Below, in pieces: positions 16,501 through 63,800 of a stretch of 64,000 nucleotides of DNA; position 1 is the stretch's first letter, and every line of letters begins with the position of its first letter. The notes below the pieces were generated by a model. The model was not told the DNA's origin, made no database searches, and was given only the letters and a program-made list of their open reading frames with translations. The DNA lies in the NCBI RefSeq assembly GCF_947623445.1, contig NC_135245.1:18421501-18485500 (forward strand), read 5' to 3'. The stretch is from Clavelina lepadiformis. Taxonomy: Eukaryota > Chordata > Ascidiacea > Aplousobranchia > Clavelinidae. Position numbers and translations under genes: made by a program.

Positions 16501-17099
16501 AATGCAACACCCAAAAATCTCGAATAACAAAAAACCTTTTTGATAATAACCCCCATAATAAACCTACGGTATATTAATTTGCAGTAGGTCAGAATTTTGT
16601 AGACTTTTAAGTTGATAGGGCTGATATGTTTGGGATTAAGTAGCAAGGAAAAGCGTTCTATCAGAAAAAAGCGCGGCTTCCCAAAGCAAATATAAATACG
16701 TCTATGACTGAGTTATAAACCAAATTACCTACCGGTTCTTGTTTAAATGACTTGTAAAAAAAGTAAAAAAGTTCTCTGCCAACGGTGAAGCAAATGCAAT
16801 CTTCATCGGTGAGACCGTCACTAACTTTAACAAATGAGGTTTTGACCGGGGTTAAACTTGAAGCAGGAACCTGGGAAAGACAACTTAAGATATTTGCAGA
16901 AACAAATGTCATACAGCATTGATTTCATTGTCACATTTATTTCAAAAGCCAATAGCTTTTGCTGAAGACTTACTTGAGGCGCATAGGGTATTCGTTTAGG
17001 ATAAAAATACTCGGAAACGGGCATTTGTCTGTATGTTCCCTCTCTTGTAGTGAACTGCACTTTTATACTTTCGTCTTTAATTCCACCATCCATTGCCAT
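10513..17099 (-). CDS. WDR20/DMWD-like WD40-repeat protein, eight coding exons
   Basis: Exons in transcription order: 17099-16974, 16870-16733, 14728-14549, 13623-13477, 13382-13188, 12823-11687, 11059-10883, 10590-10513; about 725 codons, every intron phase 0. The protein opens MAMDGGIKDESIKVQFTTRE, close to the WDR20 N-terminus (QFTTREG), and shares YKGVAPTCHD, VGFIAGQVQIID, MKSYFGGLL, GGEDDLVTVWSF, RFGSVGQDAQLCLW and CQDGYIQLW with WDR20/DMWD. The large exon 6 holds the family's acidic and Ser-rich disordered insert (about residues 355-620) between the WD blades. WDR20 is known as a beta-propeller cofactor of the USP12/USP46 deubiquitinases together with WDR48. The last exon is inferred from a TTTATTTCAG acceptor and gives a C-terminus ending SGTTV, like DMWD's; without that splice the frame ends at 10832. 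Whether the gene counts as WDR20 or DMWD is open, since the two are vertebrate paralogues. Confidence 0.93.
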
Positions 17100-38400: not shown

Positions 38401-39776
38401 CTGGCATCGCTTTAAAATGAAGCCTCAACGAAGTTCGGATGAAAACACTATATGCAAAAGTTACCAGCCATGCTTACGTCAACGTTTGACCCCACATTTT
38501 AAAAGGACGTCACTTCTACAACATGAGAAAATTGTTCGAATGATGACTTGTCGAGATTATTTTTCATGCTGACGAAGACGCACCTCGGTTGTATGCAGTG
38601 TTAGAAGCCTAGAAATACGTTTACGTTTGTTTGAAACCTCCAACTGGACAATAGAAATATATTTCACTTGATTAACGTTTATTTCATGTAATTTATTTTT
38701 TAAGTTTGCTTCTTGCGTTAGTGGTTTGATTAAACGCAAATTAAAAGGATAAAAAAACTAAAACGAATAAAATACCAAAGGTTTTTACAAAAATTGTGAC
38801 ATATACAAAATTTGCGTCGTTTAAAAAAAATTATGAAAAGTTACGGAGGCAGTAGGTCTTGTCTCACGCAAACACATTTAACCCAGGCCGTAAAAACAAC
38901 AGGACCGTAGTCACTCTTCGAAAATGACAATACGTGAGGAAGGACAGAAAGGATACGGGAAAAAGGTTCATAACCCCCGTATATACCCAGAGTGGGGCAT
39001 GGGCGCCCTTAAAGACTTCAGTTCGAAGATTAAAACCCACTCATTCACTGAGGGGTTGGCTTAGAGCATTTGGAACAAATAGGAACATTTTCATATATGG
39101 ATAAGTTTAGAAATAAAATGAAGAAGTTTTTTTAATTATTTACGCTTTTACGGGTAGAACGTTTAACCGAGTTCAGTGAAGCTTTGCATTTGTGTATTAT
39201 TATCATAAATATTTATTTTTTAAATTAAGGTTAACAAAAAAAGTATTCGATATAAGAGAAAAACCCATCCGCAATGAATTATTTTTCATGTGTAATCGAA
39301 TTGATAATTTCTGCCTCGATATTTGAAATCATAATATCAAAGTATAAGCAGTAAGATAGACCAAGGCGCTATATTAGTAATTTTTTCAAGCAATTTATAA
39401 AAAGTTAGACCAAGCGCGCAAACCTGAATGGTTTGTGTAATTCTACATGGTTAATCAGCATGTGCTTCGCAGGTGCTTCGTAAACCACGCGCATGGCAAA
39501 TTATGACAAAAAATACAAATCGAACGAAAGTTGTTAGTTTTAGAATAAAAACCCTCAACGAAAAATAACGCACCAGCTTTTAGTTTTGTAATGAAAACAT
39601 AAAAAACTCTTCAGGATAAAATTTTTTGAAAAATATATTTTTATTTCAGCTTTCCGAGTTCTTATTGAATTTCAGTCGTGTGTAAAAGATATTTGATATT
39701 CAAAAGGTATAGATTAGTTTTTCTCTTCTGACCAACAATTGAGTAGAGACCGGTATAAATTGGAAAAAGTCCAGCG
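35487..39776. other. Gene-free region upstream of Pax1/9
   Basis: About 4.3 kb without a recognised exon, tRNA or mobile element; frames at 36702-36950 and 37189-37494 match nothing I know. By position it should include the Pax1/9 promoter and some of its control sequences, but I cannot name specific sites from sequence alone. Confidence 0.45.
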
Positions 39777-42700
39777 ATGATTAACATGCAAGTCCCAACC
39801 CAGACCCAACAGGTGACATTCAGTTCCCCGCTGCAGAATCCTGGAATGGTTTCAATAATGCCAACCTCCGCAGGAAACAACAGTGAGTAGCATCTTAGTC
39901 ATTTTTGCTTTCAAAACTGAAAACTGTTTGTTTGTTTGTTTGTTGGTATGTATGTATGTATGTATGTATGTATGTATTATACTTTAAGTTTAATTTGTAT
40001 CTGAATGTTGGAGTTACCAATGTCATAAATTGGATTAATGAGAGCTTGATGTGAATAGTTATTTAATTAATTAGCTAACTAAACTAAAAAATTTGTATAA
40101 ATCGCGCATCTGCCTTTTCATGAAGAGAGTTTATAAAATTCACTGTATAAATAAAAGTTAAAGCGCGTTTTCGTTTCACCAAAACGACAAATACGGCTTT
40201 GATCATCCCATAAACTATCTTTCGTAGATTGAGACAAGGAAAACAAAGAGCCTTGTGTTGTCATAATGTCTTATTGTCCAAATTTGCTGGAATCACGTCG
40301 TAATTCTAAGCAAAGACTGGATAAATGCGTCCACTGAAACAATTGTTTTTACATCTAATTCTGAAAACAACGCAATACGATACATCATGCGAACTGCTGT
40401 TGGTTTTATAAATATGGATGGTCATTAAGGAATGAGCGTAACTCGCGCTTATCGACCGGAGTAACATTAGAAAACAATTAATCAACACTAAACCCAATAA
40501 TATCTAAAGATGTTATCGGTATATGAACTCTGTTGAACGTCGGCAAACATTACTTATCTCAGCGATTTATTCAGAAGCAGTATATAAGCTACTGCTAAAA
40601 AATAGAAAAGTTTGTGAATAGACAGAGTTGGAGTTGGAACATCAGTGTTTGCTATACCCTGAATTTTGTTTAGTATCAATTGGTTTGTTTTGAAGTGGAT
40701 TAAAGAATATTTAACTTATAAAATCCACTCAAACTCGCTTTTATTATTTTAGCGACCATCGAAATGATTTTGGGCGGCGCGAGTGACTTGTTTTTATTTG
40801 AAAAGCGAAATAGGGGAGGGCGGGCTTTTGTGTGAAACGGTTTTGATCGGTGTCAAATGCGAAAACAAAGCAAGAGTGTCATTGAATAGGACAAAAGCCT
40901 GGTACCTGGCCGCAGATACGTGAAGACGGTTGAGAGAACGAGAGCATTTCTCGCACGGATCGAACAGAAATTAAAAGTTTCGTTTTTTCCGGTAATTAAA
41001 AATAATTTACAAAGAATTTGCGTCAAACACCAGATAAAAGCAAAGGTCATGTGTACTTTGTTCTTGAAGCAAAAGACCTTGGCAATTGACAGCAACAGTC
41101 ACAGAAAAAAGGAAGTTAAAGATGCAAACATGCAAAAACGTATAAAAGACATGCTTTTTGCAAGCTTAGAAATAAAATGAGTCGATGCATTTGTACCGTT
41201 TGTAATGTTCGTCAAAATAATAGGACGATGGAGCTGTGCAGGAAGAGCTGGAAATTTTTAATAAGCACAGAAGAGAATTTTTGTTTGCTATCGTTTGAAT
41301 CACTAAGAGCATTTCATGTAAAATTACAGAAGAAATTTTTTGTAAAGTTGAGCTTTACATTTTGAAATGTTATCCTGCTTACGAACAACCGTGGGATTAG
41401 AAGCAGCCTCCCTCACCTCGGCAGAGCGCCTGTCACTTAGCAGGCTTCACGCCAAGCAAAAAGAAGTTTTAGGTACAACAGCAGTAACACTTAACACCTA
41501 TGAAACGTTAATTGCATGGGACATGACATTTGCTTATTTTTGCTCTTAGATAAGTTTTTTCTTTATCTTGTGTAAAGATTTGATGCTGAAAACGTGGATT
41601 GGAATCTTTGAGTTTTATTTTCGTTTTAATTGCGTCGAAATGTTGCGCCGCTAATTACAGTGAAATCGATTAAGGCGTAACGACTTGTACCAAGCCCTCA
41701 AAAGTGAGGAAGTTTAACTTAAGTGTAGTCAACGGGACGATATAGTTTATTTTGCGGTAAAGCAGTGCTTAATTTGCCGCGTACTTTGTGATTCTTTGTG
41801 AGCTTTCGCCATTTTGAAACAACACTGAAAAATATATTATCCAACCATATTAGAAGAGCTTATTATGTTTTTTAAGCAGTAAGCAAATTTTTAATAGCTA
41901 TACTTTTTTCGCTGTTTTTTGTTTTTGCTCTCTTTTGACCCCTGTAACAACAAATTCTTTTTATTTCTTTTTTATGTTTCCCTTGTGATGTCACAATGAA
42001 CACGTCCAGATCAAACATTTGGAGAAGTGAATCAGCTTGGCGGAGTTTTCGTCAACGGTCGCCCCCTACCAAACGCCATCCGGGTTCGAATTATTGAGTT
42101 AGCCCAACTCGGGATACGACCCTGTGACATCAGTAGACAATTGCGGGTCTCCCACGGCTGTGTGAGCAAGATCCTGGCTCGTTACAACGAGACTGGGTCT
42201 ATTCTACCTGGGGCCATCGGTGGAAGCAAACCGAGGGTGACCACCCCGGGTGTGGTGCAAGCCATAAAAGAATATAAGGTTCGGGATCCGGGAATATTCG
42301 CGTGGGAGATTCGAGATCGGTTGTTGAGCGACTCCATATGTGACAAGTACAATGTGCCGTCCGTGAGCTCGATCAGCCGGATTTTAAGGAACAAAATTGG
42401 CAACGTTTTGCATCCCCACAACCCCCTAAACCCCAACTACGTACCCTCGTCGAATGGACAGAACGAAAACCCAAACACAACCCAAACGAACACGATGCGC
42501 TCAAGCGTCTACAACAGCCCAATCTATAACCCCTACGTGGTCCCACCTGGTACCAAGCCCACTATTCCCAATTGCACGTCCACGCTGCGCAACCCAGCGG
42601 TGGGACATTTCTCCTACTCGCATTCCGTGACAGAAATCCTGGGATTTCCGCGATTTGACCAATCACACATGAGCCAAGGTGAGTAGAAGTTTCTATTAAA

Positions 42701-45700
42701 ATTGGTTTACCATTTGATAGCGCTAATTAATTATTAACTGCTATATCTGGCTGCACATCTTATGGAGCTGCGTATTGTAGATCCTATTATATAGCAATTT
42801 TCTTTGTTTTGGACGGTTGCGGCCACAGTGAAAATGGCTGTACGCTTCCAAGAGATTTCATTCGCAAGCAAAAAAAATATGATGTACGCAGCACATATAA
42901 GAATATAGCAATATACACCATTACGTCACGTACGACACAGGGCGTGAAAAAACCGGTTCAGTGTGACAAGGACGCATTGCTGTAATTATTTTGTCAACTC
43001 ACGTTAAGAAGAAGCAACGAAAGAGACATTCACTGCAAAAGAATGCAACCGCTCGTTGCACTCTCCTCAATTATTACAGAGAGGATTGTCCGCCTAAATT
43101 AGCCTTGAAAAGTGTACATAGTGTTGTCATGCTTAACTGAAACTTGCGCGCACTCCCAAGTAACGGCTTCCTTTGTGCGCAAACCTATAACGAGATTCCA
43201 AGAACCTTGGCTATAATTATTGAAAGGAGTGACATTGAAATAGCCACCTCAAACATATTGTTTTTATCCAAATCTTGAGAATCACAAAGCACTAATTTCG
43301 GCAGCTGCTAAAATAGCGAGTTAAAAGCATAGAATACACTACAACTTGCGATACAAGACAGTAGAAATAAAATTTCATTCAAAACTAAGAACATAGAGTC
43401 ATGGTGACAAGCAGGCTTACATATTTGGGAAATTTCTTTGAATAAACGTTACGGCCTGCACGCATCTGAAGAGCTATCGACATGCTTCCAACGGACTAGT
43501 GCTCGCACTGGGTTATATTTCCACATATGTCATTTGGGCAGTAAATTTAGAAGCTATCTTGAGATATAGCAGTCGTAATAGAAGCTTGCATTCGGACGAC
43601 TCGCACCTGAGTAAGATTCTGTTTCAATGACACTTGGTCGCTGATCACGAAACAAACAGATTTTGCAGCACTTCGATTTTCAATCGCCGTAAAATACATT
43701 CCTATGTAGACTGTCGACGCCTAATGGCTGTCTAAGAAACGATGGTCTTGTTTTGCGATCATGCATGATGTAACGTACGTAAAAGTTTTGTGGATTTGCT
43801 ATAGTGCATCGACAACGAAAACTCCACGATTTGTCGCAGCCGAGTTTGGCAGAATGTCGACAAAGTTAACGCAATATGTTTCTAACCGCCATTTTGTCCG
43901 CTGTTACTTCTCTAATTTAGCCGGTTTACAACGGTACGCAATACTACGTCATGCATGGGAGTGAAACCGCCACGGCTGCTTAGAAACGCGATAAAAGGCG
44001 TAACTTGACATAGCGTGAAATGGCCAGCATAGTAAACAATATGTTTGGAAATACACGCATATACGCACGTGTTGCACATGCATGCAAAGGATGCGAACCA
44101 GACACAACTTAAAACAAATCTCCTGGAACTCGGCGAAATGTAAAAATACATGGGCAGTTGCTAGGGCCGACTAGAAACTAAAAAACTGAATGAAATTGCG
44201 TTGTAAGTTACTTAACCTACTTTTCTTTTCTTCAGCTGGGAGTCACACGAATCCCGTCCCGTTAGACAGCGGAGGCAACTACCACCATCAGTTGGTGCCC
44301 GTGTCCGTGCCGCACATGATCCCTAAAATCGAGGAATGGAACGGAGTGACTGCGTACGGAGTCACGCCACCCAGTCAAGTGACTTCGGTAAACTTATGTG
44401 ATCTGGGCAAAAATTCACCCGACAATCGACCCAACGTGACTAATCTGCAATCAACTGCCAATGAGGTAACGATCGACGACCGTACATCTTTAACGTCTGC
44501 GGTATATACGGTTACGGTTTATGCGGTGTCGGGAAGTACATCAAACAACCGATTAAAAAATCCAAAATTATGTTGCTGTACGGGTTTTCATACATATCAG
44601 TTTTGTTTGTTAAAACGTTATGTGATTTCTATTTATCAGATTAGACCCATTCAGCAGCCCGCTCCTCAGTACGCTACGTCATCAACAAATCAAGCATTTA
44701 TGCCGACGCATGCCCCAGTAATACAACCTTCAACTGCACCATACCCGACTTCAGCCTACATGCCGCCGTACGGTCACCCAAGTGCGTGGCCGCAGCAGCA
44801 TGTCGGTATACCGCATCCAGCAGCTATAAACGGTGTGGAAAACAACGGCATGATGCTTCCAACGCATCATTCGGTAACTCAAAATGGCGGGACATACCTT
44901 TCACCTTATGCCGCAATTAAGCAGTCTGATCCCACTCATGCCGCAAATGGTGAGTAAATGAGTTAAATTAAGCTAAATTGCATCGGTAGTTGTACAAGAG
45001 AAATATTTTAGCACACCTGTTGACCAAAATTCCAATATTGCCATACGAGTCAGTTTACTACTGACGATTCAAGCGTTTTTACTCAAGTAAGCATAAAAAG
45101 TTATACTTAAGCCACTGGTAGGCCTATGAAGGCATGAAACCACCCACAAGTTTATCACGGGCGGGGTAGGCACAGTTATGATTCTTGCATCGTAATACTT
45201 AGGCCTATTACTTACCGTACCGTACTGAATGATAAGAATCCAATTTTAAAGCCGGCTGGGTAACAAAACGCACTTCATATAAATACATGCCTAACCTGCA
45301 ACTTTACTCTTGTTGTCAACAAGTATAACCAATACGATATTCTGTTCCTTAAGCATTTGAATTCTCAACACAACTTCTTATAAACATGCTAGGAACTAGA
45401 ATGTTTTTTCGAAACATAGTGACCATAAATTCCCCTATTTTAAAACTAGTATTACTGCCCATAAAGATGTAACAACTACAATATCTAATCGATATCTATT
45501 TTAATTAAACTTTTTACAACCCTCTAGAGCATACGTGTCAAACTCCCGGCCCGCTTGACAATAAAACTTGGCCCGCAATGCTATTTTATACATTGAGCTA
45601 TTTCCGGCCCTCGAGATCATTGTACAATATAACTTATTTTTTTCAAGCAAGAAACAAGATTATTACAAATCGCACAATACAGCAGCACAACAGTTGCCCC

Positions 45701-46199
45701 ATCATACGATAGAACAAATCGATTTATTCTATCGCTTAATTGTAATCTGGGCTGCTGTTTTATTTATTGTTTGTTAATTCTTTAATGCTTTTGCAAGGAG
45801 ATGAATGAAACATAATGATGTAAGAGAAGAATAATCAAAAATAACCCAGTCAAAAATCGTCAAAAACATCAAAAATTTGTTGTTGTTTCGCTACCTGTTC
45901 CAATTCATGTACTCGTGTCATGAAACGTTCAATCAAGTTTTATCCTTACGGTCCTCGACTTTAAATAAGTTTTGAGTTTTGGCCCCTGGTGCGATTGACT
46001 TTGACACCCCTGCTCTAGAGTCTAGATTTTGGATTTACATTTTTAAATTAATTTTTAAAATTAAATTATTATTATTGGCCAATTTTTTTGCTTAATTTGA
46101 TATTAATATCTCATTTTATTAATAGGGGAAGGAAAAGTAAACGGAAATAAGTCGTCAATAGAACCCAGAAACCAAGCACAAACTGCATCAGCGTCATAA
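39777..46199 (+). CDS. Pax1/9: Pax1/9 paired-domain transcription factor
   Basis: Exons: 39777-39882, 42010-42678, 44236-44465, 44640-44949, 46126-46199; about 462 codons with all frames in register. Exon 1 gives 35 residues (starting MINMQVPTQ, Gln/Pro-rich), preceded by an in-frame stop; its GTGAGT donor and phase 1 fit exon 2. Exon 2 carries the whole paired domain from [18 protein letters not shown] through [18 protein letters not shown] and [14 protein letters not shown] to [13 protein letters not shown], which match the Pax1/9 class. The octapeptide-like HSVTEILGF follows (human PAX9: HSVTDILGI) and there is no homeodomain, as in Pax1 and Pax9. Exon 3 has KIEEWNGV, like the KVEEW of vertebrates; the C-terminus ends QTASAS*. 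Pax1/9 is a DNA-binding regulator of pharyngeal pouch and gill-slit endoderm. The 174-bp gap 44466-44639 is in frame without stops, so intron retention would also give a protein. Confidence 0.96.
39945..39976. repeat. GTAT microsatellite
   Basis: About eight tetramer repeats preceded by a short GTTT run, in the first intron of Pax1/9. Confidence 0.9.
45530..46012. mobile_element. hAT-like non-autonomous element in the last Pax1/9 intron
   Basis: Left end CATACGTGTCAAACTC; reverse-complemented right end CAGGGGTGTCAAAGTC, the classic Charlie-type hAT terminus. A perfect 8-bp target duplication, CTCTAGAG, flanks it (45522-45529, 46013-46020). No transposase. Confidence 0.9.
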
Positions 46200-49066
46200 A
46201 TTTGCTTACGAAGCTCGGCTTCTAAGACAAACTGAAAGACCGGAAAAGAATTTCTGGCATGATTAAAGATGCTGAGTCTAGGTGGTATTCGGATGGACAC
46301 GGTTGATGAGCGCTTTTGCAAGGTCTCAGAAAGCTTTACGGTATGTCTGCTACGAGCTCGACCAGTTGGAGCATAGAGAAAAACATCATAGATATTTTTG
46401 CGGAGGCAAACGTTTTGTTCCATTATTTTGCTTCGAACGCCTTATATGTTGCCAGTTTTTTATTAGCCGCTTTAATTTTTTGGTTTTGCATACTGCCAAC
46501 GCCTTATAAGAGGAGCCATACATTAGCCATGAACAGTAAAACATACATATGCGTTGCCTCCTTTATAGTGCCATTGTTTTTTTAAAAAAACCTGCACATA
46601 ATGGTTTCTTCAAACCGTAGAAAACAAAAAGTTGCCTTGCGTGAATTTTATTTTGTTATGTGTATTCTTTTTTTATGTGCTTTTGTAGTCATGTTGATAA
46701 ATGCCTTAATCGTACAAGACCTTATTAGTTCAAACTAACACCTGTTTTATATTTTCTTTTAACCTCTTACATGTACGAAGTATATAGGATGCATGTACCT
46801 GCTTCGCTGTCTTTCTTTGTTGTAAACCTGATTTTTCCTTCAGTGTGGGTCGGTATTTACTATTAAGTGCAAATATTAAGCCATGTGCCTACTATGTATT
46901 GAATAAAATATCTGATAAATTTGTGTGTCGGTCTCCCGGTTCAGTAGGTTCCTCAATTTTTGGAGGAGATTACGATCCCCGAGATAGCACATTTAATCTC
47001 GGGATAATTCGACAAATCACTCAAGGCGGGAATCCGGCATGATAAAAACAAATAAAGTTCTTGAAAAAAAAAACAACACAACAAACCAAACCATCAGTAG
47101 CAGCGTGCCAGCAGATAGGCTGTTGTTTTAACCAAGAAAAACAGAAAGTGCTCCCCGAACCGACGTTGTCTTAAAGCCGACGTTTTTGGGGAAATCGGCC
47201 TAAAATTCTATTCCGTTTAAAATGGAAAAATCCGTCAAAATAAATTCGCGCGGCAATCAATATATCAGTTGCGCCATTGTCCATGGATGCCGTTAAAAGC
47301 TCGGAGAAGATTGTCTAATCCAAATAAAGTCGGCAAAACACGACATCCACCCGTTTGTTATTTTTCTACGGTGCCGAAAAGAATCGTTTTAAAGCAACCT
47401 TGTTTTTCTAGGCGCGCCTAACGTCATAACGTTTCAGGCCGCCTTCATCTCGCGGCACGAATATTTGTGGATCGGAATTTTGCATATATGACGTAATCAC
47501 GTAAGTAAATTTCCCGGCAAGGCGAACATTCTTCAAAAAAAGGAGAAGCATATCTGTCGAAAACGTGCCTGTGGCCATTCAATCGACATTTTACGCTCAA
47601 GTTCCTCGATAACTTATTTTCCGATTAGCTTTGATAAATTAACTCCAAGCATGCGAGATAAACAGTCAAATAACGTACCACGTGGAAACTTGATTTAATG
47701 CAACGGAATCAATCCTTGTAAGATCAATAACAAGCTTTTATTGATGGATACTTGAAAAATTTTTTTCATGTTTTCCCCATGTGTGCCGGCCATTGCTTAA
47801 AAAATTTAAATTTCAAAACTATCTATCTGTAACAATATTAACAATGCATAGACAACCAAATAATCATATTATAACCACACAACACATAATTGTGACTAAA
47901 AACGTTTTTATTGGATTTCCTACGCATTAAAAAATTGCAAAAGCACTGACTACCACTTTCAAGCGCCCACGGATTTAAAAGAAAAAACAGGTAAAGGATT
48001 AAGGAAATAGAATAATAATAATGAATACCAGAAAAACGCTGAATTAATAGGCAATGCCAGTTAAAAGTGGTTTAAGAAATCAAAACAGCGGCTAACCAAA
48101 CTCTACAAATAGCGCGCATGGAAAGTATTCTATAAATAAAACAATTCACTAAATTGGCACAGACTTCACAAATTAATACCGAACACGCAAATAGTGCAAG
48201 AAAAATATCACGAAAACTTGCCGTTCAATGACTTTACCTTTTGCACGTTCACAAACCGTTTTGAAATCTGTAAGGAACTTCGCCAAAAATTCAACTGCAC
48301 GTAATAGCTGGAAACAAGCGAAAAGACGGATTGCACATAGATACCTTAATTGCGTGAACAAGTCGATAGCTAGGGTGCACAAATCTCTCACTTTCTGGTG
48401 AACTGCTGGGGAAATAGTACACACAGTTGTCAAAAAGAAAGACGTGTATAGGTATAACATAGCGGGTTAAAAACCAATAAAAAAAAACTAAAGGTGTTCA
48501 GCAGTTCAAAATAATGCTATAAATATTTTCTGACAGTAACATGCAACAAATGATTTTCAAAAGTTTTTAAAAATACGCGCGGCAAAAACACGTCTCATGA
48601 TTAAAATTCAAACAACGTAACTAAACACATAACAAACGATTGCAAGTGAAATCTTATTAACTAAAAACTGAAGCTCTTTTCGCAAGAGTCCAATAGGTAC
48701 ATGCGTATAAATTGCTTTTAACTGTGACAACTTGTAAACGACGCCAAAGCACTAAGTGAGCTAGAATGACTTGTGACGCGGGTCACTTCTCTAAGCTAGA
48801 CGACATGCGAGCATAGTACGTTTAGAGGAAGAAGTACCATCGATATTGAAAACGACATAAAAGTGTGAACGTGACGGTATCAGTGAACCTAATGGATTAT
48901 TTCATAACTTGGCATGATTTAGTGTCAAATTTGATAAAAAAAATAAAATAAAATTCTTGTGAATGGGCTTAAGTAGAAGCTTGCAAACACAGATTGTGGA
49001 ATGTAGTGTCATGGAGAAGACTTCTGACAGAAAGTGGTCGTAAGAGCAACCAAGGAGATGTGGAAC
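46200..49066. other. Interval between the convergent Pax1/9 and slc25A21 genes
   Basis: Holds both 3' untranslated regions. An AATAAA near 47050, followed by an A-run, may end the Pax1/9 transcript. No third gene is recognised. Frames on both strands at 46103-46585 and a minus frame at 48173-48460 have no family resemblance. Confidence 0.5.
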
Positions 49067-52000
49067 TTATGGAAATTTCTGGGCCAGATACTGAGACAGA
49101 GTGTCATACACAAACATCATAATTGCTCCACCTGGTGAAAAATTTACATAAAAATCTAGTTAAAGCCACAAAGCTTGCAAAACCAAAACGAAAGTCAAAA
49201 ACTTACTTGGACCCAGTCTTAAGAGTTTCGGAACCAGACCCTTGTACAAAGCGCGAAACCTAACAATAAAAATCGCATGAAAACAATGTGTAAGTGGCAA
49301 GTTGGAAAAGTTTTATAAACAAATTTAACAATAATCCAGCAACACAGGATAGCTGCACCACCAGTGAGAGCTGCAGCGGAATCATACAGTAGTACAATCA
49401 TTATACAGCTATATGCAGTCACTTTACCATTCAGCTTACCCTTCCTCCTTGTATATGATTAGCATGGTATGATGGGCCCCAAAATATTTTGTCTGTCCAG
49501 GAACCGGTTGCGGCCCCTGTATACGACTCTTTGCTACATCGTAGGGAATATTTATGACAGAAGCAATTGATCCCGCTCCAAGACCAATCAGGAGCTTGTA
49601 GGCTGTTGTTTCAATCCAAGACTGGAAATGTATGTGTTGTTAAAGCGCAACACAGGTTATGCTGTGGTTTGTTATGTAGGAAGGCTTATTGAAGTGTCTT
49701 CTAAAGGACAATTTTTGTTTGTTATTCTGGATAAGAATGAACATTGCACAGTCAGGCAAAAAATAATCCAAACAAAAAATAACCATAGAACGTTACAGTT
49801 AGATATCGCAATGAAAGAGAAAATTATGCTTAAAGCACAAAATAGAAACATAAGTTGATATTAGAAAGTTATTTTCCCATTCTTGCCACACCTTTGGGTT
49901 CTTTTATGACTGGAATATTCCCACGATTGTAAGAAGGCCTTTTCAAAAACTATAACGAGCATTATGACAACCATAACAATAACTGAATTTAAAACAAAAC
50001 AGCTCTTTTATGTCCAGAAACTTATCTTATGAAATGTATTAGAAATGGCAATTGGCCGTGAAAGTTTCATTGAACTGCAAAAGCATGACGACCCCAAAGT
50101 ACTTTGTCGCCATCTGATACAATTCTGCTTCGCAATGTTATGACTGAGATCTATGACAAGTTTAAAGATAACCTCACAACACAGGGATTTATTACTTCAA
50201 CTTTTGAAGTGTGTCAATAATGAACAAATTAAACAAAATAATCAATCAAGTGTTAATGCCGACCGAAGAAAGAAAAGCCGTTTTGCAAAATAAAAGAAAA
50301 ATATACATGAGTAATATTTTCAGAATTTGAGAGCATTTCGCCGAGCATATGGGAGAAAGTGCTTAAGGTTAGACCTTGCGTGACAGAAACCGGTTGCCAG
50401 GCAACAAAAATTAAAAACAAAATTAATCCCATCTTACCTCTAACATTTGAAAAGCAACAAACGCATTGAAATTGCTGCACACGAAACCAACATTGGTCTA
50501 GGACCAACGGTGGTCCAACACAAAAGAGAACTTACAAAGTTTAAAAGCTTATTTTAAACCATCATATCGTTGCTCAACAAATCTATTTCATCCGTGACCA
50601 GACAGAACCCACGATAATATGACTAAGATATCAATTTAGCAATGTTAACTAAGTATATTATCGCCATTAAAATTGTTTTGTTGAAAAATCATCCACGTTG
50701 TTATGAATATGAGACATGTGTGCAGGAAGTGAATACTTACCAAGCGTTAATCATCACCGGCACTGAGTCATCCATTTTTCTTTACATTATTTGGCAAACA
50801 ATAATAATAATAATCCTACTAATCGGACATAAAGAAAAATGGCACTAAACTACTAGGATGAATTTATCTAAAAAATACCATCCAAATTTTTACCGTCTAC
50901 AACTTTTTGTATTTCAGTAGAAGATATGTACTTCAGGAACGTTACCTTGGATTCTGGAATATACGGTTTTGCAGAGTGATATATTCCAAAATAGACCATG
51001 TTCCACACACCATGTCTCCCTAACGTCGCTGTCAATCCTCTGTTGATTCCCTTGGTACCAAGACCTTCGGATTGGACGATCTTACGAGCTTTGGCGAAAG
51101 TGGATTCTTGCTACGATAAAGATTAATTTCTCAAGCAAGACACAAAAAATAGTTTTGTAGAATACCGAAAATTTTTTTTATGGAAAATAACCAGGAAACA
51201 AAGTTTTTGTGAAACAACATGTGGACTGTGCATGTCTGGGTCAAGTTTTTAATAAAGCTGTCGACACAAGAAGGCTATCAAATTTCTTTCCACAAAAATT
51301 CTCCTTCCATTTCCGCAGCTGAAAAAGGTGCAACAGAAAAATGACGTTTGTAACCCAACTCCAATCCTCAGTCATTGCCATTTTAGCGTGACCAAATCCT
51401 GCGAGCCCCCGTTGTATTTTAAGGTACTTGTGTCATTAGTACGCCTGCTTTTATTGACTTTCTATGTTACCCCGCTCTTATGAAGAAGCTTTATTCACCT
51501 CACATTGCGTGACAACAAGGCTTTTACCCCATTTATTTTTATTCCCGCCCCCGGGGTGATGTTTGATCAGTCCCAAAGTAAGATTAGTTCCTTTTTTTCG
51601 AATCTTTCATTATTATGTCAAGGTAACAATAGTCAAAAATATGTCTGTTATGCATCTAAAGTTGACGGATTCACAGAAAATATCAAAATGTGCCCACCCA
51701 TGAAACTTTACCCACATAAAGGAGGGATAAAGGAACCAGCTTAATAATTTACAATTTATTTCATTTCCCGCTTTATTTTATTGATTTGTAACTTGTTATT
51801 GCCAACATTGTCACCATAATCTTATTGTGTCCAATACTTTATGCTTACTACAGCCTTCAAGACATACTAATTATGATTAATTTACATCACAGTGTTAATA
51901 ATAACAAATTTGTATATGTATATATATAAATAAAACTCAATGAGAATATACCAGTTTAGGAAAACCAACTCACATCTTTAAGCTTGACATTCTTCTCTGA

Positions 52001-55000
52001 CTGCAGAAGAACTTTGACCCTTTCAAAAGGATTAATGACAACTCCTTCAGTTAAACCACTGCAAAGTCCAGCAAGGGAATACACCTAGCGGCAACAAATA
52101 ATAAATGGATGTAAACACTGAATATCTTCAAGATATTAAATATGTGCAACTGAAAAAAGATTGCATTGTTTCGTAATGCTAACTAATTTCCTAAAGTAAT
52201 CAGACTATATGAGTAATATTGAATTATAACTTACATCATGAACTTTAGCTTAGAGATTGCTAAATTGTAAATTATAGGTAAAAGTTGTATATTGCTATGA
52301 CTTTGTGGTTTGTTGCTTTAACGTTTCTATGTAAAGTATCTACAAAATTCGTATGTATCTAAAAAGAAAACAACTTTGTTGGACATTTGAAAAATTCAGA
52401 TGACAATCCACATAAAAATGTGAATCATGCTAAGTTTCTGTCGGATAAATCAAACATCATCAACTAGTTTCGTCTGCTTAAGTGGAAAAGAGTCAGCAGT
52501 TTATTTAAGAGATTTATCTTGTACGCATTTGTTATGGTTGAGCACAATTCTATGCAATGCCACAAGATATAGAATTGAGTAGCGATGGGGCATGATGGTA
52601 TTTAAGTGACAGTGTGATCAATTACACAGGTTCGTCCATGCCATGAATCATTGAACAAGAGCGCAAAGCTTAATAAATCGCCTAAAAACTTTGCTTCTTT
52701 TCTGAAAGCAGATACAATATTTGTGATGAATAATAATAATAACACAAGACACCCACAAAATCAAACATAGAAATCTATTGTTGTTTTCCAAAGATTTAAC
52801 CGATTTCAAGCAATAGTCAGACATATTTCAGTGACTTTTAAGTGTGAAGTCTGGGCGGTAAATGGGCAAAGGTTTTACGAGTTTGATTGAAAATCTATAC
52901 AAAATGGGTAAAATAACGCCGGTAAAATTGTGCTTGTCATATACATAGATATTTAAAATATAGTGAGTGTGCACTGTGCACCAATAAAATTACTAAACAA
53001 CTAATTTTAAAATATTTGAATCTTTCTTAAGTCAAACAGGAATGGAAAGAAATTTTCGATGCTTAATTGCTCATAGATTTGGGTCTTGAGCAGAAGCCAC
53101 TAAACAAACAATAGGGGAGCTGAAGATTATTTGACTTTGTGACAATGGCACATACACAATGGCATGATTTACTAAGAAAACACACAGAAGTGTTATTTGA
53201 AAAACGTTTTTATAAACTTTTGTCAATCAAATTTGTTTTTCAGCTTTTCCGAGCAAGCGCAGTAAACTAAGATTCTTGGTTGAAACATCTTGGAAAAAGC
53301 ACACGCCACATAGGAGATTTGTGCACAGTTTTCATCAGACAAATAGTTAAATGACCTAGTAAGTAAATACTTATACAAATACGCACGTTTACAAGAAACA
53401 GTCATTGGGTAAAATGACTCACATTAAGATGATATTCAGCCATTTAAGAATAAGACGTATATATCAGTCTTAAAAGTAAATAACAAAATTGAAAAGGTGT
53501 ATTACCACAGGAGTTTTTTCCCCACCCTGGCTAAATAAATGTTGGTATCTTTCAAAGAAGAAAAACTGCAAATACAACATTAATATCAGAGAAATTATAA
53601 AAAATACAACTGAAAGTACAAAGCATATCTTATTAAACATCAGTAAGTATGTCATTTTGTTTGGAAGTTTTTATAAGCAAATGGAAGCTCTATGCCTCCA
53701 TCTTGAGGTTAAATTTTTACCTTTACTGCTCTCTTAGGTGTCTCTGCTAAGATTGGAGGGAAAATTCCCTTGTAAAATGACAAAAACCTAGAAAAGGTGT
53801 GAATATATCATAACTGCTTGTTCATATATTTTCCTCAAATATATTCTGGTACATTTTATTTGCAACATTAATAATTATAGTAAAATAACTACCTAATTAA
53901 AATAATTTATGTAAAGACATAGATACAACCACAAAGCAAAGCAAAGTGGCTAATAACATGTAAATCATAAGCCAGCGGTTCCTAACCGGTGGGATATATT
54001 TAACCTATGCAATCCGTAAACGAAAAAAACGCAAAAAAAGTTTGTTTTGGTACGTTTCAAAAGTGTAGTGGCAAAAGAGTGGCTACAACAGCACCAAATT
54101 ATGATCAAACAAATAGCCTTTTACGGTAGACAGTAGACACTACAGATACATTGTACATGACAAGTATTGCCGTCATACATTACAAGTATTGCACTTTCAG
54201 CCTTGAAGACGTCACAGTTAAAAAAGCTCAGCAATAAATGTTTGATCATAATTTGTTGTAAATTAATTATCAGACAAGCATTTTACTTTTATTGTGTTAT
54301 ATTTGTACCGCGTGTGATTACAACAAGTTCATTAAACTGAAATACTTGGTTGGTTATGTTTAATTATGTATAGAAGTGGGACTACCAACAGCACTAGCTG
54401 GAAACTTTTTAAAACCAAACGAAGGAAATTGGACTTGGTGGTAAGCTTTAATGGGAAATCAGATGAAAAAGATTAAGAATCGCTGGCTTAAAACAAAGAA
54501 AAGAATTTTCAATAAGTATACAGAAGAAAGAGTTTTTCTACAACATTTTTTGGTTAACCATTTGTTGCCGACAATGTAACACAAATTTGGTGCTAGTTTT
54601 CACAGAGGCAGCAATGGCTATGATGCCACTATATGAAATTAACATGTTTAATGACTGGTGTTTGAATGAAGTACGGCAGTAGGTAGTGGTAGATAAGCAC
54701 ACACGTTTTGAATGGAAGACAACTTTGCAGGTAAGCGATTAATTACGAGTGATATTTATTTTTAGCCAAGAAATGCGGCATTTGACATTAAATGTACTAG
54801 TGAAGTAGTCTATTATATTTATTTTAAAAGTAAGTAAGTATTCTAAAATACTATTCGTATTCTTACGGCAATTACTGGTTCCAGGCTAAGCTGGCACTAA
54901 CAGCCAAGGCTAAGCTCAGAGAGCCAAGATTAGCATCTACCTTCCTGAATATAAATACAACAACTGTGCTGTAAGTTAAATTAAGTCAAAATAAAACAAG

Positions 55001-56874
55001 ATATTCCCATCATGCACTGAAATACGTGCAAGATATCGCCACCACGCATGTCATAATGAGCTGCAAATTTGGGTTCATTTTGCGACACATTGCTTAAACA
55101 GTTAATGTTATTAACGAGTTTTGTTTCCAGTATACTTACTGACAAATCCTCTTTGATTTAAAGTCAAATTATCGTAGCACTACCCTCACCCTAAGCAGTT
55201 TACTGTGTGCATTTTACTCTACTTTTAAGTGTAGAGAAAGTATGTTCAACTACAAAGTGTAAAAAATTGGTTTCACTGCCTCGGTCCTATTAAAAATGGC
55301 AGAGGGCCTGTAGTCATCATTAATGAAGAGACGTTTTTAACAACTAATATTCAAGTGTAGTATTTGAAATCTTAAACTTAACGTACCCTTCCGTCCTATA
55401 CATTGTAGTTACGCAATGACCGAGCGATCTATACTGCACTGAGTCCTTTACGCTACCTTGGAGTTGAAACCTACAAAAGTATAAATGAGTTTTGTCACAA
55501 AGTTAAGCAAGAAAAACATGTACTCTACAAATTTTAAAACTCCTAAAATCAAATAGAATTGGACAGGTTTGAACTTTTCAAACAATTACCTGGTTTTCAC
55601 GACATCAAGCGGATGCATTAAACAGATTTCAACTAAACCTGCAAAAAATATAAATACACAAATATTTACCTAACATTGTGGTCAAAATATATGCAGCAAA
55701 GATGAGTTACATTATGGTGTTGGGATATCACATGATACAAATACAAAGTGGATACCTTAACTTCACTTACTTAAAATTTTGAATAACACGAAGTAACTTA
55801 AATGGGCTTGAAAACACACATATTATAAAGCATGCAAAAAGCTTAAACTTACATAACACTCATTAACTCAATCTTTCGGCTACCTCAAAGTATGAGACGT
55901 TACAAATATTTCCCATCATTTTGATGTAATAAACATGATTTGATCAATCCCTGACAGTTCAGTTAGGACATTTTGGATCATAACCGTTGCATAATTATAC
56001 TATGAATTAAGCGTTAGTTAGAATCTCCGCATAATGTTTAGTGCAGTAGTCTAGAAACCACTTAATGACCAACCAGACAACCACTTTTTATGACAATTTT
56101 GTTGTGACCACGAAAGATTCCAGGTGAAAATGAAAATCTCCATTTAAAGTGAATATATTTCGGATAATATAATGTCATTTTCAATCTTTTTATGTTGTGA
56201 AGTGTATAACTTGGCATAAAACATAATGCAAATAATCTGAACATTACTTTTTGGTCATTTTGTGATAAACCAAGTCGACGTAGCTCTGGTTATCATATTT
56301 TGTAAACTGTTAGTATGTATAGTAAATTCGGTAGCATAACCAAACTGGTCCAGGTTCTGGAATAAGGAGAAAAGAATAAGACACAAAAGCCCGACAACTG
56401 ACATTAAAAATGCAAGTTGTAATATAAGACTGTTGCATATTTATATATACATATGTTTGTTTTGTGCTTAACTGGTGTAAAAATGTTAAAACTGATGAGT
56501 TGATTACTGCAATGCATACACGTCTATTAACTTCAAATGCAAAAAACTTTAAATAAGTCTAAGTAGTTCAATGGCCCAACGGGTTCTTCATATTTCAAGT
56601 TTCCACTATGTACACATCATTAACACTATGTGCTAACTGCCAAGTATATATACGCGTATTTTTAATTAGCTGTAAGTGTAATTATATATATATATTATTA
56701 TAACTATTATTCATAAATCACAGATAACATGAATGAGTAAAAAATATTACCTGCACTTCCCCCGGAGACAAGCTGCTGAAACATTCGCTTGTACGACGTT
56801 CCATATTGTTGTGTTTGCACACTCTTTGCAACTTGCTGCGGAGTAGTGGTAAGAAGTGGAGGATCTCCGGCCAT
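49067..56874 (-). CDS. SLC25A21: Mitochondrial 2-oxodicarboxylate carrier (SLC25A21/ODC)
   Basis: Exons in transcription order: 56874-56751, 55638-55590, 55470-55387, 53787-53721, 53565-53506, 52084-51974, 51110-50946, 49621-49440, 49259-49207, 49131-49067; 319 codons with all phases consistent. The three carrier repeats show their signatures: HPLDVVKTR, NPFERVK and IPYDVAKSRIQGPQPVPG. GGSAGLVEICLMHPLDVVKT and GLTATLGRHGV are shared with human SLC25A21, which settles the subfamily. The protein sits in the inner mitochondrial membrane with six helices and exchanges 2-oxoadipate and 2-oxoglutarate in lysine and tryptophan breakdown. It has about 20 more N-terminal residues than human. The human GPGGAVM near the end is GPSGAIM here. 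It lies tail to tail with Pax1/9. Confidence 0.97.
53973..54485. mobile_element. hAT-like non-autonomous element in an slc25A21 intron
   Basis: Left end CAGCGGTTCCTAACC and reverse-complemented right end CAGCGATTCTTAATC are hAT-type termini. No clear 8-bp target duplication remains. It lies between exons 3 and 4 of slc25A21. Confidence 0.65.
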
Positions 56875-59800
56875 TTAAATAAATAAATTATAAATAAATA
56901 ATCTACATAAAAACTAATCTGAAAAAATGTAGTTTTTATTGTATTTTGTTAATAACAACTAACTTGCAAAATGTGAAACAATTCTCAAGTATGACATATT
57001 AAGTCGTAAAATCAGCCACAAACTTCGTCTCAACATTTAGCTAACTCCCACTATGCTCCCTTTTCAAGTAGTTCTGTATCATACGATAACATTATTACAA
57101 GACTTAAATTGCATACACTTTGTATCTTACATGAGCCGGCAAATTCAATGCTTTAGCACACTTTAAGGCTAGGAAGTAAAAAAAGTGTAACTATATCAGC
57201 AATGAAAGAAGGCTTATGCTGAATCAGCACTCCCGAAACCACAGTGCTTGTAAGCCTATATATAAATATTTGCTGACCACACCTCCTGTTAAACAAGCTA
57301 TTTTGTTGCTTAGGTTCCACACTCCATATTTTGATGCACTTCTTAGAAGCAGACCAAAACAAAAACTGTCTTTTTGTCACATTTATACTTTGATCGCTGG
57401 TTAAATAATATAAATTCCTTGCCTTTAAAGTTTAATAACAATGATAGTTTAGCCAATTTTCATAACAAGCATGTCCAAAGCTTGTGGATAAAGCTTTTAA
57501 GGTTAGTCCTTGAGTTTCGTTACGTTTAAATGACATTGAATCCCACGTGCCACATGCATCGACGTTATTAAACCCTGAGGCTATTGTAAGCCATGTTGTT
57601 AGCACAACGTAACAAACTTATAACCCTACACCTGAAAAACTAGTTTGTATCTAATTGTGACAAATGCTATTGTAATCTATGTCAACCAAATACCGATCAA
57701 ACATTCACAAAAATGGAGTTGCAACATCATGACATGTACAACATACACAGTATTATACATTATAAATATAAGTTCATTGATATTCACATCATATTATTAG
57801 AACATAATATATATACTGAGCTTGACATATTTGTAGATGAAATTTACCAAAAAATATCCACAAAAATGAAAACTATTGCTCTAAATATATAGATCAATAC
57901 TTTAATACATTAGATTTGGAACAATTTTAGAGTATAAATTTTATACCATACAATAAGTAACAAAACTGTTATAATATATAGCATAGGCCTACTGTATTTA
58001 GGTTATATTATACATATCTTAATTTTTTCAGTATTTTTGTAAACAGATATTGGTAAAATATTTATAGTTTTGTGAAAAGCTACTCAATTTCATGCATTAC
58101 TGACAACTTGTAAGTCATTATTAACAACAGCAAGACCAAAAAAATATTCTACATGCACTCTCTACTTTCAAATGCACACTGTAACAATCCAGTACCATTT
58201 GGTGCAGGCTTCATCAACTATTTTTGTCCAAACTTGGTTTGAAATAAAGCGCTGTTTTGATCTTGTCACCAAGTAGGGCAGGTGCAGGCACTCAAATTTA
58301 AAAAAGGCATTTCCCAAGCACTTTGCTATCGTTCTGGCCCTCTATTATGATAGTTATTGTTGTACCAGAATATCGAATCTTGCAGGTTTCAAGTTATTGG
58401 GATTTCACTGCTTTTCTAGCCCTTTACTTATGTGTGAGCATGTACTTGTGATATACTGCTACTGGTGTCACAGTTAGCACCCGTTTTTTTCTGCGCACTG
58501 TTAACAAAGTGGCCATTTCACCTAGATCAGGCATGTGCAACCTTTTTCACTGGAGGGCCAAATACAAAATTTTGAATGACAACGCGGGCCACATGATTTT
58601 TCAGAAAAAAACTAGTATCGTAAAACGACTTTTCTATGCAGTTTATGTAGTTAAGAAATAGATTTAATGCAGTCCACGACACACTTGCGCGACAATTTAT
58701 TGACAAATTGTGAATAATTGTCGATGGAAGATGAGAAAACTGAAGAAAATGAAGTTCTAAAATTTTGCTGAGCACCACGCGGGCCGCATGGAACAACCTG
58801 GTGGGCCGCAGTGCGGCCCGCGGGCCACTGGTTGCACATGTCCGACCTAGATGAACAAAAACAGTTTTCTCACTGGACGATTTCTGCCTCAAGGTATAAG
58901 AAGCACACTTCTATATAGAATTCCCAGAGGTTTCTAGCTTCCTGGAAGAATTCTGATACTAGAAGTGCTGTCGACCACTGATGACTCGAAATCCTGTCGA
59001 TTGTAAAACTTTTGATTTTTGCAAAGAACTTCGAATTCACTATGCCTCGATGGCCATAACTTAAAAATTACACGGAAAGCTGCAGGTTAAAAAAATTTCC
59101 AAAAAGTTGCTTAAAACTTCAGTGCATATATATATGGAGTCTCTTATACTTTTGCACTCTGACTTGAAGGTTTAACTGGAAAAGAATTATGAGGCAATAA
59201 AAAAGAAATTATGAAGTGACTAATTCTGTAACTATGGGAATGCAAAAATAAAGAAGACCCTATACTTTTTAGGCTATTTGCAAACCAATTTGAGGTTTAT
59301 TAATCAGGTTGAATCCACGCTTCAGAGGGAGCGTTCAAGTGATACCTGTTGAACCACTCGTACCAAGTGATACCACTTGAACCAGTATTATTTAGCCGTA
59401 TTCACCACACTTACCACTATATGGCTGATATCTCAGGAAAATTTTTCAAATCTGGACTTTTTTCACAGCGTGACTACAAGTAGTACAAAGAACTACACCG
59501 ATCAGTTTGGAGAACACGATGCCCGAAGGGGCATTTCATGTTCCGAGTTACTCTGTTTAAAAAACAGGCGCAAGTGCATGACCAACAGTTAAACGGAGTA
59601 ACTTTGGTTTGACCTCAGTGTGGCATGGAGCACTAGGTTGGAAAGTTAGCTAAGTGCACAGGGATAGAAATTAATTGCGCATATAATGGCTATTGCTTCA
59701 TCTGGTTGTGCGAGGATTTATCACCCAAAAACAGTAAACTTCCCAATCTGGATGAAGCAAAAACGTCTTGGTCCAGCCATACCATAGCTTGCGTACTTAC

Positions 59801-60853: not shown

Positions 60854-63800
60854 TCAAGCAGAACTACTTTGTTGGGCGCATCCGGATAGACAACGTTGGC
60901 ATCCCATTCCTTGAATTCGCTGTCCTGGAGATAACCTTGGACAGCTTGCACAGGCCAGACGAGCACGGCGGACGCATGTGGCTCGAGCCAATTGACTAGT
61001 TACTGGAACATGACCTGAAGAAAAACCAAAGAATATTTTAAAACTTACGAAAGACAACTACTGTATTAAGAACTTTATCCAAAAAACTCGTATAATCTTG
61101 TACTTAGAAATCTTGAAGAGCAGATACTTACCGCAAGCATTTGCAACACACTGAGCACATTCAACACTTTCAGATGGCATCTGGTTTGTGAAAGCCGAGC
61201 TTCTACAACTGGCAGACGAAAGACATGTCTGCCTACAAATACCATAGTTTCGCCCTTGTGCTCTGTTATTGCCACCGTACCCTCCTGGTCTTCGCTGGTT
61301 GTTTGGTGAATGGCTTAGTCCGGAAGGGTTAAAGCTGTTATCTGGCGTATCGGGCAATTCCACTTTTGGTCCTACACCAGGCGGTTTTTGTCGTCGTGGA
61401 AAAGGATTGAGAGTTTGGGAACTTGGTTCTTCTGTAAAAGAGGAAAACACTTGTAAATGGTCAGATCTTTACTTTCCTAAACATCCTTCAATCATGAAGT
61501 AAATAACTAACCGTCATCGGTGAAACATCCCGAGATGCAAGTCCTGCATTCTCCCATGCGACGTTCCTCCTCATCTCCTGCTGGAGGACACGACGAACAT
61601 TCAGCGCGAGCATCTACCACGCAATCCAAAACCTCACTTCGATTGCTTCTTTCAAACTCACCTGAAGCAAACAAACATCAACTAGTTTTTTGCGCCTCTT
61701 CAAAACAGCTAAATCAACACAGTGCTCAAATTTTGCAAAGAGCGACTCTAAAAGTGTAATAAACCTACCACACTCCTGCATGACGCAACTACGACATTCT
61801 CTTCGCGAACTCATGACGCTGTTTCGAACCTCGTTCCGGCTCGGACACACGTCCGATTGCTCACAAGATTTCATGCAGGAAAATCGTGAAAACATGCGTC
61901 TCGGTAGCTTGGGTCTGTTCATCCCGGAGCATCGTTGCACGCAAGTGATGCATTTCCTCTTTGTATTTTGCTCCTCATCACTCATCGTAGGACACTCGGA
62001 GCATTCCTCACGAGCTTCCTCCAAACATTCCATGAAGTCGTCTCTATCATTCTGGTTGGGAGGACCTGTACGATAAAGCATAACGAAAGTTCATCACGTG
62101 AAACAGAGATTAGGAGAGTTACTCAGAAAATCAAGAAGTAAGTACACAACTCAAAAGTACATTTTTTTATTTTCAATTGTTTTACCGCATCTGCTCATTA
62201 TGCATCGTCGGCACGTTGAGTCAGGTCTTCCAAATCGTTGCATTCCTTCAATCAACGACGGACAAGTGTTGTTGTTAACGCATTTACCGTGACATCTTTT
62301 CCTCATCAGTCCTTGAAAACGTCTTATTGGCTTAAATCCAGGTCCATCTTAAAAATGATTTATATTTGATGAGGAATTTCAAATGGAAGATGTTGTAAAT
62401 TGTCCGACACTTTGTGTAAAACTGTTTTCTAAACTCAACTGAAAGACTCACTGTTATAAGGGGAGCAGTTTCTGACACATTCCTTGCAAGTTCTCATTCG
62501 ATTTTGTTCCTCATCGGAAAAAGTTGGACATTCGTCACAATTACTGCGAGCTTCTTGAATACAATCAGCCACATCGCTTCGATTGTTTCGATTAAATGGA
62601 CCTGACATTGGAAAGAGTTTTTAAGCTAAGCAACAAAGTTTTAGAGCTAAGTCGATTGAATGTTTGTTTCATACCACATTGCTCCATGACGCAACCCTTG
62701 CAGTAGTTGCTCATTCCTTCCATTTTTGTCATCAGCTCATCTCTGGATGGGCAGTCCCCTTCACTCTGGCAGTTTTTCATGCAAGCAAATTTCTGAAACG
62801 GACCACGACCCGGAAGAAACCCTCCGGGACGTAAACCACTTGGTCGTTGATGATTGCCAGTTGAGCCTGTTCGATAGTTTGGTTCCTCTGTAATGCGCGA
62901 AAACCCTCGTAAGTTGTCGAGTTATTACTTTCCTAAATATAAGTCCGCTCATGAAGTGAAGAACTGACCGTCATCGGTGAAACATCCCGAGATGCAAGTC
63001 CTGCATTCTCCCATGCGACGTTCCTCCTCATCTCCTGCTGGAGGACACGACGAACATTCAGCGCGAGCATCTACCAGACAATCCAAAACCTCACTTCGAT
63101 TGCTTCTTTCAAACTCACCTGAAGCAAACAAACATCAACTAGTTTTTTGCGCCTCTTCAAAACAGCTAAAGACAACACAGTGCTCAAATTTTGCAAAGAG
63201 CGACTCTAAAAGTGTAATAAACTTACCACATTCTTGCATGACGCAACCACGACATTCTCTTCGCGAACTCATGACGCTGTTTCGAACCTCGAACCGGCTC
63301 GGACACACGTCCGATTGCTCACAAGATTTCATGCAGGAAAATCGTGAAAACATGCGTCTCGGTAGCTTGGGTCTGTTCATCCCGGAGCATCGTTGCACGC
63401 AAGTGATGCATTTCCTCTTTGTATTTTGCTCCTCATCACTCATCGTAGGACACTCGGAGCATTCCTCACGAGCTTCCTCCAAACATCCCATGAAGGCGTC
63501 TCTATCATCCTGGTTGGGAGGACCTGTACGATAAAGCATATAGAACGCTCATCATGTGAAAGAGAGATTAGTAGAGTTACTCAGAAAGTCACCAAGTAAG
63601 TACACAACTCAAAATATTTTTATTTTCTGAATTTTTTTACCGCATCTGCTCATTATGCATCGTCGGCACGTTGAGTCAAGTCTTCCAAATCGTTGCATTC
63701 CTTCAATCAACGACGGACAAGTGTTGTTGTTAACGCATTTACCGTGACATCTTTTCCTCATCAGTCCTTGAAAACGCCTTATTGGCTTAAATCCAGGTCC

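Follow-up and report, generated by a model that had tools for sequence, protein, structure and literature searches.

Pax1/9 and Slc25a21 remain direct convergent neighbours in the aplousobranch ascidian Clavelina lepadiformis

Why do two neighbouring genes stay side by side when the rest of an old gene cluster has come apart? The question is raised by Pax1/9 and Slc25a21 of Clavelina lepadiformis, an aplousobranch ascidian, which lie next to each other and in convergent orientation on chromosome 6. The stretch of DNA analysed here (the window) is 64,000 nt long and corresponds to C6:18421501-18485500; coordinates are those of the window unless a chromosome (C1, C2 and so on) is prefixed. The genome searched comprises 209 Mb in 95 contigs, of which chromosome 6 (C6) accounts for 20.77 Mb, or 9.9%. 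Identities to human proteins (PAX, SLC25, ACTR2 and Mipol1) refer to reference sequences other than deposited records, and papers are cited by PMC number. The GH6 family (PF01341), tried as a marker of tunicates, matched neither this genome nor any of 14 controls and is therefore uninformative.

Pax1/9 is composed of five exons on the plus strand, with a complete coding sequence at 39777-46199 encoding 462 amino acids (aa); its four introns are all GT-AG, and a single open frame is kept across the exons. Specifically, exon 1 (39777..39882) carries the start codon at 39777 and a 35-aa N-terminus and ends in a GT donor whose phase fits exon 2, while exon 2 (42010..42678) encodes the paired domain (Pfam PAX, E 1.3e-64) and the octapeptide HSVTEILG. 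Exons 3 (44236..44465) and 4 (44640..44949) have AG and GT sites and an open frame, and exon 5 (46126..46199) encodes the C-terminus QTASAS and the stop codon. The paired domain is of the Pax1/9 type, as judged from the Pfam match together with an identity of 91% to PAX9 and 71-73% to PAX3/5/6. Besides PAX, a Pfam scan of the whole protein returned two HTH models, which overlap the paired domain, and no paired-class homeodomain. The PAX search of the genome gave 11 matches, nine in five Pax genes and two weak; a single Pax1/9-type gene was detected, with eight of the nine matches in Pax genes translated and the type judged by eye. A search of solved structures returned Pax5, Pax8, Prd and Pax6 only, and thus does not name the ortholog.

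Slc25a21 is composed of ten exons on the minus strand, with a complete coding sequence at 49067-56874 encoding 319 aa. All nine introns are GT-AG and a single open frame is kept, from the start codon at 56874 in exon 1 (56751..56874) to the stop codon in exon 10 (49067..49131), the final base of which is 49067. Exon 1, exon 3 (55387..55470), exon 4 (53721..53787), exon 5 (53506..53565), exon 6 (51974..52084), exon 7 (50946..51110) and exon 8 (49440..49621) were found both by the gene model and by a search of the genome with its own protein; exon 2 (55590..55638) and exon 9 (49207..49259) come from the gene model. The genome search with this protein gave 22 matches, among which those above 34% identity are its own exons alone (eight rows), and no second copy was found.

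The encoded protein contains three mitochondrial carrier repeats (Mito_carr, three stretches, E 8.7e-65) and is, by sequence comparison, the predicted 2-oxodicarboxylate carrier SLC25A21. In particular, it is 57% identical to human SLC25A21 over 286 residues, compared with 29% to SLC25A29, 31% to SLC25A1 and 30% to SLC25A20; among these four human references, compared in place of a full family tree, SLC25A21 is thus the closest. The two proteins also agree in the ILAETPKRAVKF stretch and in the SRIQGPQPVPG stretch, the latter encoded by exon 8. Among solved structures only distant carriers were returned, the best being the ADP/ATP carrier (E 1e-27), so the structure search does not name the ortholog. 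The sequence-only reading, an earlier reading of this DNA without database searches, had likewise called the carrier slc25A21. The sole support for another SLC25 member is the label slc25a29, printed for the corresponding neighbour in Ciona (PMC5882950), and against the identities and shared stretches above we regard such a misassignment as highly improbable. Because the Clavelina carrier is closest to SLC25A21, the Ciona robusta neighbour labelled slc25a29 in PMC5882950 is itself probably SLC25A21.

The gene models place Pax1/9 (plus) and Slc25a21 (minus) as direct convergent neighbours, the arrangement of the bilaterian microsyntenic pair. The interval between the stop codons, 46200..49066, is 2,867 bp long, which bears out the 2.9 kb of the sequence-only reading. 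No gene was identified between the two, as that reading had also held; the longest stop-to-stop open reading frames (ORFs) of the interval, of 112 and 97 aa, were not searched against family libraries. The orientation is the vertebrate one, as had been proposed: in mouse the two genes are on opposite strands, Pax9 being 3′ of Slc25a21, with a gap of about 21 kb (PMC3958370). For a gene end placed at random, the chance of lying no more than 2,867 bp away and being convergent is about 7e-6, indicating that the pair was inherited rather than assembled by chance. Taking gene identity and inheritance together, the Clavelina pair is almost certainly the Pax1/9-Slc25a21 pair of the bilaterian ancestor, convergent as it was then.

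An artificial join in the assembly would also place the genes side by side. Such a join is unlikely because the source assembly, kaClaLepa1.1, is described as built from 117-fold HiFi data with Hi-C scaffolding and a contig N50 of 8.3 Mb (PMC10884593, which gives 210.1 Mb, 102 scaffolds and nine chromosomes). Moreover, the same two genes are separated by about 3 kb in C. robusta and also form a pair in Botrylloides leachii (PMC5882950). Nothing was found in favour of an assembly join, and we give it a very small chance.

Linkage of this kind has been described before. PMC5882950, the only tunicate paper naming both genes that we found in the open-access literature, places C. robusta Pax1/9 and the carrier on chromosome 11, shared with FoxA2 and dhrs7, and reports that B. 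leachii retains the Pax1/9-slc25A21 pairing only, with mipol1 missing. According to the same paper, Botryllus schlosseri and Molgula oculata show no clustering, some M. oculata scaffolds being too short to judge, and Oikopleura dioica has a Pax1/9-Nkx2.1 link only. Survival of the pair in a tunicate, which the sequence-only reading had put forward, is therefore true of Clavelina and had been reported before in C. robusta and B. leachii. Clavelina resembles both in having the same two neighbours, and C. robusta further in the spacing and in having FoxA on the Pax1/9 chromosome. It differs from B. leachii in having a Mipol1 candidate, and from C. robusta in adding Xrn2 and the Mipol1 candidate to the same-chromosome set and in a carrier nearest SLC25A21, not SLC25A29. 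What is new here is the ascidian order of Clavelina, absent from the five-tunicate comparison of 2018 (PMC5882950), and a chromosome-scale picture in which the pair is kept and the other placed cluster genes are dispersed, half of them along chromosome 6. No published treatment of the pair in Clavelina was found in the open-access literature searched for the pair in tunicates.

Does the pair represent a surviving core of the pharyngeal cluster, as the sequence-only reading had it? In PMC11175523, pax1/9-slc25a21 and mipol1-foxa are favoured as pairs of the bilaterian ancestor that joined an older xrn2-nkx2-msx-cnga block on the deuterostome stem, giving a ten-gene cluster (xrn2, nkx2.1, nkx2.2, msx, cnga, pax1/9, slc25a21, mipol1, foxa and egln3); an earlier full cluster is left open there. 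PMC7978419 reports pax1/9-slc25A21 linkage in Lottia and considers the whole cluster possibly bilaterian, and PMC11521371 describes a single Xenoturbella region that holds Foxa, Egln, Mipol1 and Slc25a21. Since the pair also occurs in protostomes, the pair alone is no proof of a surviving deuterostome cluster: the pair has been kept, but survival of the cluster does not follow from it.

The other cluster genes were also sought in this genome. The forkhead search gave 37 matches, and among the 30 translated there are three FoxA genes by sequence, at C6:5574291 (minus), C6:5580967 (plus) and C6:13304084 (minus), 5.2-12.9 Mb from the pair on the same chromosome. The copy at C6:13304084 has HNF3-beta (FOXA2) as its best solved-structure match (E 1e-68), and it shares with C6:5574291 the stretch HPFSISSLMN, which we take to be a FoxA motif. 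The copies at C6:5574291 and C6:5580967 are divergent and about 6.4 kb apart, and the open frame at C6:5580967 is without HPFSISSLMN. Xrn2 lies at C6:13443178-13451847 (best match an exoribonuclease 2 homolog, E 7.5e-25); a second Xrn locus, at C9:992-994 kb, is XRN1 by eye. Xrn2 is about 140 kb from the FoxA copy at C6:13304084, and both are ancestral cluster genes; we do not claim them as a second relic of the cluster because they lie near opposite ends of its reconstructed order.

A Mipol1 candidate at C6:14888804-14889454 (plus) consists of two pieces, 55% and 41% identical to a piece of human Mipol1, which lie in the right order and are the sole two matches of that search. Pfam found no family in either piece, and the candidate is short of a full gene model; on this sequence evidence, Mipol1 probably still exists in tunicates. 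At 3.6 Mb from Pax1/9 it is the nearest of the other placed cluster genes. Off chromosome 6, an NK2-type homeodomain at C2:9461489 (minus), with an intron near its start, is presumably Nkx2.1, assigned by eye. A CLZ domain typical of CNGA is found at C1:24704024 (E 1.1e-5, sole match; the control, Haloferax volcanii, matched below the cut-off), and an Egln gene at C7:14868390-14869328 has a HIF prolyl hydroxylase as its best match (E 9e-27) and is assigned to Egln rather than to one paralog. The homeodomain search scored 150 of 192 candidates; neither Nkx2.2 nor Msx was among the 50 of 116 matches translated, including 11 of the 12 on C6, although a split or divergent copy could escape.

Chromosome 6 thus holds pax1/9, slc25a21, foxA, xrn2 and the Mipol1 candidate, with the members outside the pair 3.6-12.9 Mb from it, while Nkx2.1 is on chromosome 2, the Cnga-type CLZ domain on chromosome 1 and Egln on chromosome 7. 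The deuterostome cluster, in which Nkx2.1, Nkx2.2, Mipol1 and FoxA lie close to Pax1/9, is not found here: Clavelina shares with it (PMC11175523) the pair and the presence of five members on one chromosome, but is no longer clustered. The search of the surroundings for nkx2.1/2.2, mipol1, foxA and egln3 that the sequence-only reading had proposed accordingly came out negative. Among the cluster genes placed, Pax1/9 and Slc25a21 alone are still adjacent. Of the six other placed genes, C6 carries three (FoxA, Xrn2 and the Mipol1 candidate), a binomial P of 0.016 in a test that was set up after the locations were known, counts FoxA once and excludes the unplaced Nkx2.2 and Msx. This excess fits the Ciona chromosome that FoxA2 and Pax1 share and is suggestive, but only suggestive, of old chromosomal linkage.

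What, then, has held the pair together? The sequence-only reading had proposed a regulatory block, which is plausible by analogy. In such a block Slc25a21 would be a bystander gene beside Pax1/9, the control elements of Pax1/9 would lie 3′ of the gene, in the intergenic interval and the Slc25a21 introns, and selection would act against breaks inside the block even as the other parts of the pharyngeal cluster dispersed. It is the vertebrate analogy that makes a 3′ position of Pax1/9 control DNA most likely. In zebrafish, slc25a21 intron 3 harbours a pax9 enhancer, Px7, active in sclerotome/myotome; another enhancer, for the branchial arches, was located within the 15 kb that separate Px7 from the last pax9 exon (PMC3210094). 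In mouse, the construct used to target Slc25a21 contains a known Pax9 element, CNS+6, and Pax9 was reduced by one of the targeted alleles, tm1a (PMC3958370). In the sea star and the sea urchin, the Pax1/9 and Foxa microsyntenic pairs lie within topologically associating domains (PMC13317027). The vertebrate PAX9/SLC25A21 block and that of Clavelina are alike in being convergent, with the carrier 3′ of the Pax gene; they differ in the gap, about 21 kb in mouse and 2.9 kb here, and in that enhancers have been tested in vertebrates, whereas the Clavelina block is known from its sequence.

In Clavelina itself, two observations favour constraint. Every other cluster gene that was placed lies megabases off or on a different chromosome, with the pair intact, and a 7.7-kb stretch, 46200-53900 (the interval, Slc25a21 exons 4-10 and introns 4-9), gave a single candidate in the whole genome, itself. 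That search, made with this stretch alone, passes over very common words and simple repeats. The interval 46200..49066 likewise matched itself alone, and Rfam gave no match at gathering score there or elsewhere in 39000-58000.

Repeats do occur on either side of this stretch. The last Pax1/9 intron contains a repeated element (45522..46020) with 8-bp direct repeats, CTCTAGAG, at 45522-45529 and 46013-46020, imperfect terminal inverted repeats, and dispersed genome copies that are 88-95% identical; from its terminal sequence, we take it to be a hAT-like miniature inverted-repeat transposable element. In a search with 39700-57000, all 43 matches listed lie in 45512-46026 (39 of 485 first-look candidates scored), so that further repeats could hide behind this element. 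A search with 46130-57000 (39 of 96 candidates scored) placed all 43 matches listed in a repeat-bearing stretch of Slc25a21 intron 3, 53973..55180. The one tandem repeat in 39000-58000 is (GTAT)8, in Pax1/9 intron 1.

Several points weigh against a regulatory block. The block is not free of repeats, which occur in the last Pax1/9 intron and in Slc25a21 intron 3. In the mouse experiment CNS+6 is intact in tm1a, and Pax9 was unchanged in the tm1b, tm1c and tm1d alleles (PMC3958370), so the experiment does not demonstrate a working element in Slc25a21. The zebrafish branchial-arch enhancer is without conservation even to close fishes (PMC3210094). Finally, PMC5882950 does not report the pair together in B. 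schlosseri, M. oculata or O. dioica; if this absence is real, constraint in tunicates is not absolute.

The main rival is passive survival of a short gap, in which 2.9 kb offers little room for a rearrangement break and the pair persists by chance and shared descent. The shortness of the gap in Clavelina and C. robusta, and the failure of three of the five tunicates of PMC5882950 to be reported with the pair intact, speak for it. Set against these are the separation of all other placed cluster genes from the pair in the Clavelina lineage and the retention of the pair in the lineages of Lottia, sea urchins, hemichordates and vertebrates, the gap in mouse being far wider. We consider passive retention a serious possibility that falls short of an even chance. 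A bystander cis-regulatory block, with the inherited pair taken as a whole, is the best explanation and a moderately probable one; that regulatory elements are the cause of the pair's survival, as the analogy suggests, we put at just above an even chance. Still more tentatively, and with more doubt than belief, the ascidian cluster may have been dismantled within one chromosome, with pax1/9, slc25a21, foxA, mipol1 and xrn2 still linked; the pair alone would then have been held together, by the Pax1/9 pharyngeal enhancers it carries, and the compact, apparently single-copy 46200-53900 would be the minimal form of an enhancer-bearing block whose vertebrate counterpart is far larger.

Other genes of the window lie outside the pair. 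Upstream of Pax1/9, an Actr2 (Arp2) gene at 24214-31638 (plus) was recovered as ten ordered pieces by tblastn with human ACTR2, with one weak extra match elsewhere on the other strand; one exon has Arp2 as its best solved-structure match. A Wdr20-like gene occupies 11651-17123 (minus), in which a 402-aa ORF, 11651-12859, best matches WDR20 (E 4e-47); the piece at 16827-17123, without a Pfam match, is presumably part of it, as assigned by eye. Tandem cysteine-rich ORFs lie at 61058-63548 (minus); two of them share a near-identical EEAREECSECPTMSDEEQNTKRKCITC stretch, and Pfam gave no match for three.

Clavelina extends the known range of the bilaterian Pax1/9-Slc25a21 pair to a further ascidian order, and its chromosome-level data part two questions that have often been merged: the old pair survives, and the larger cluster does not. 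With just 2.9 kb between the genes, the block is short, and reporter assays in ascidian embryos would be a simple test of the idea of bystander enhancers.

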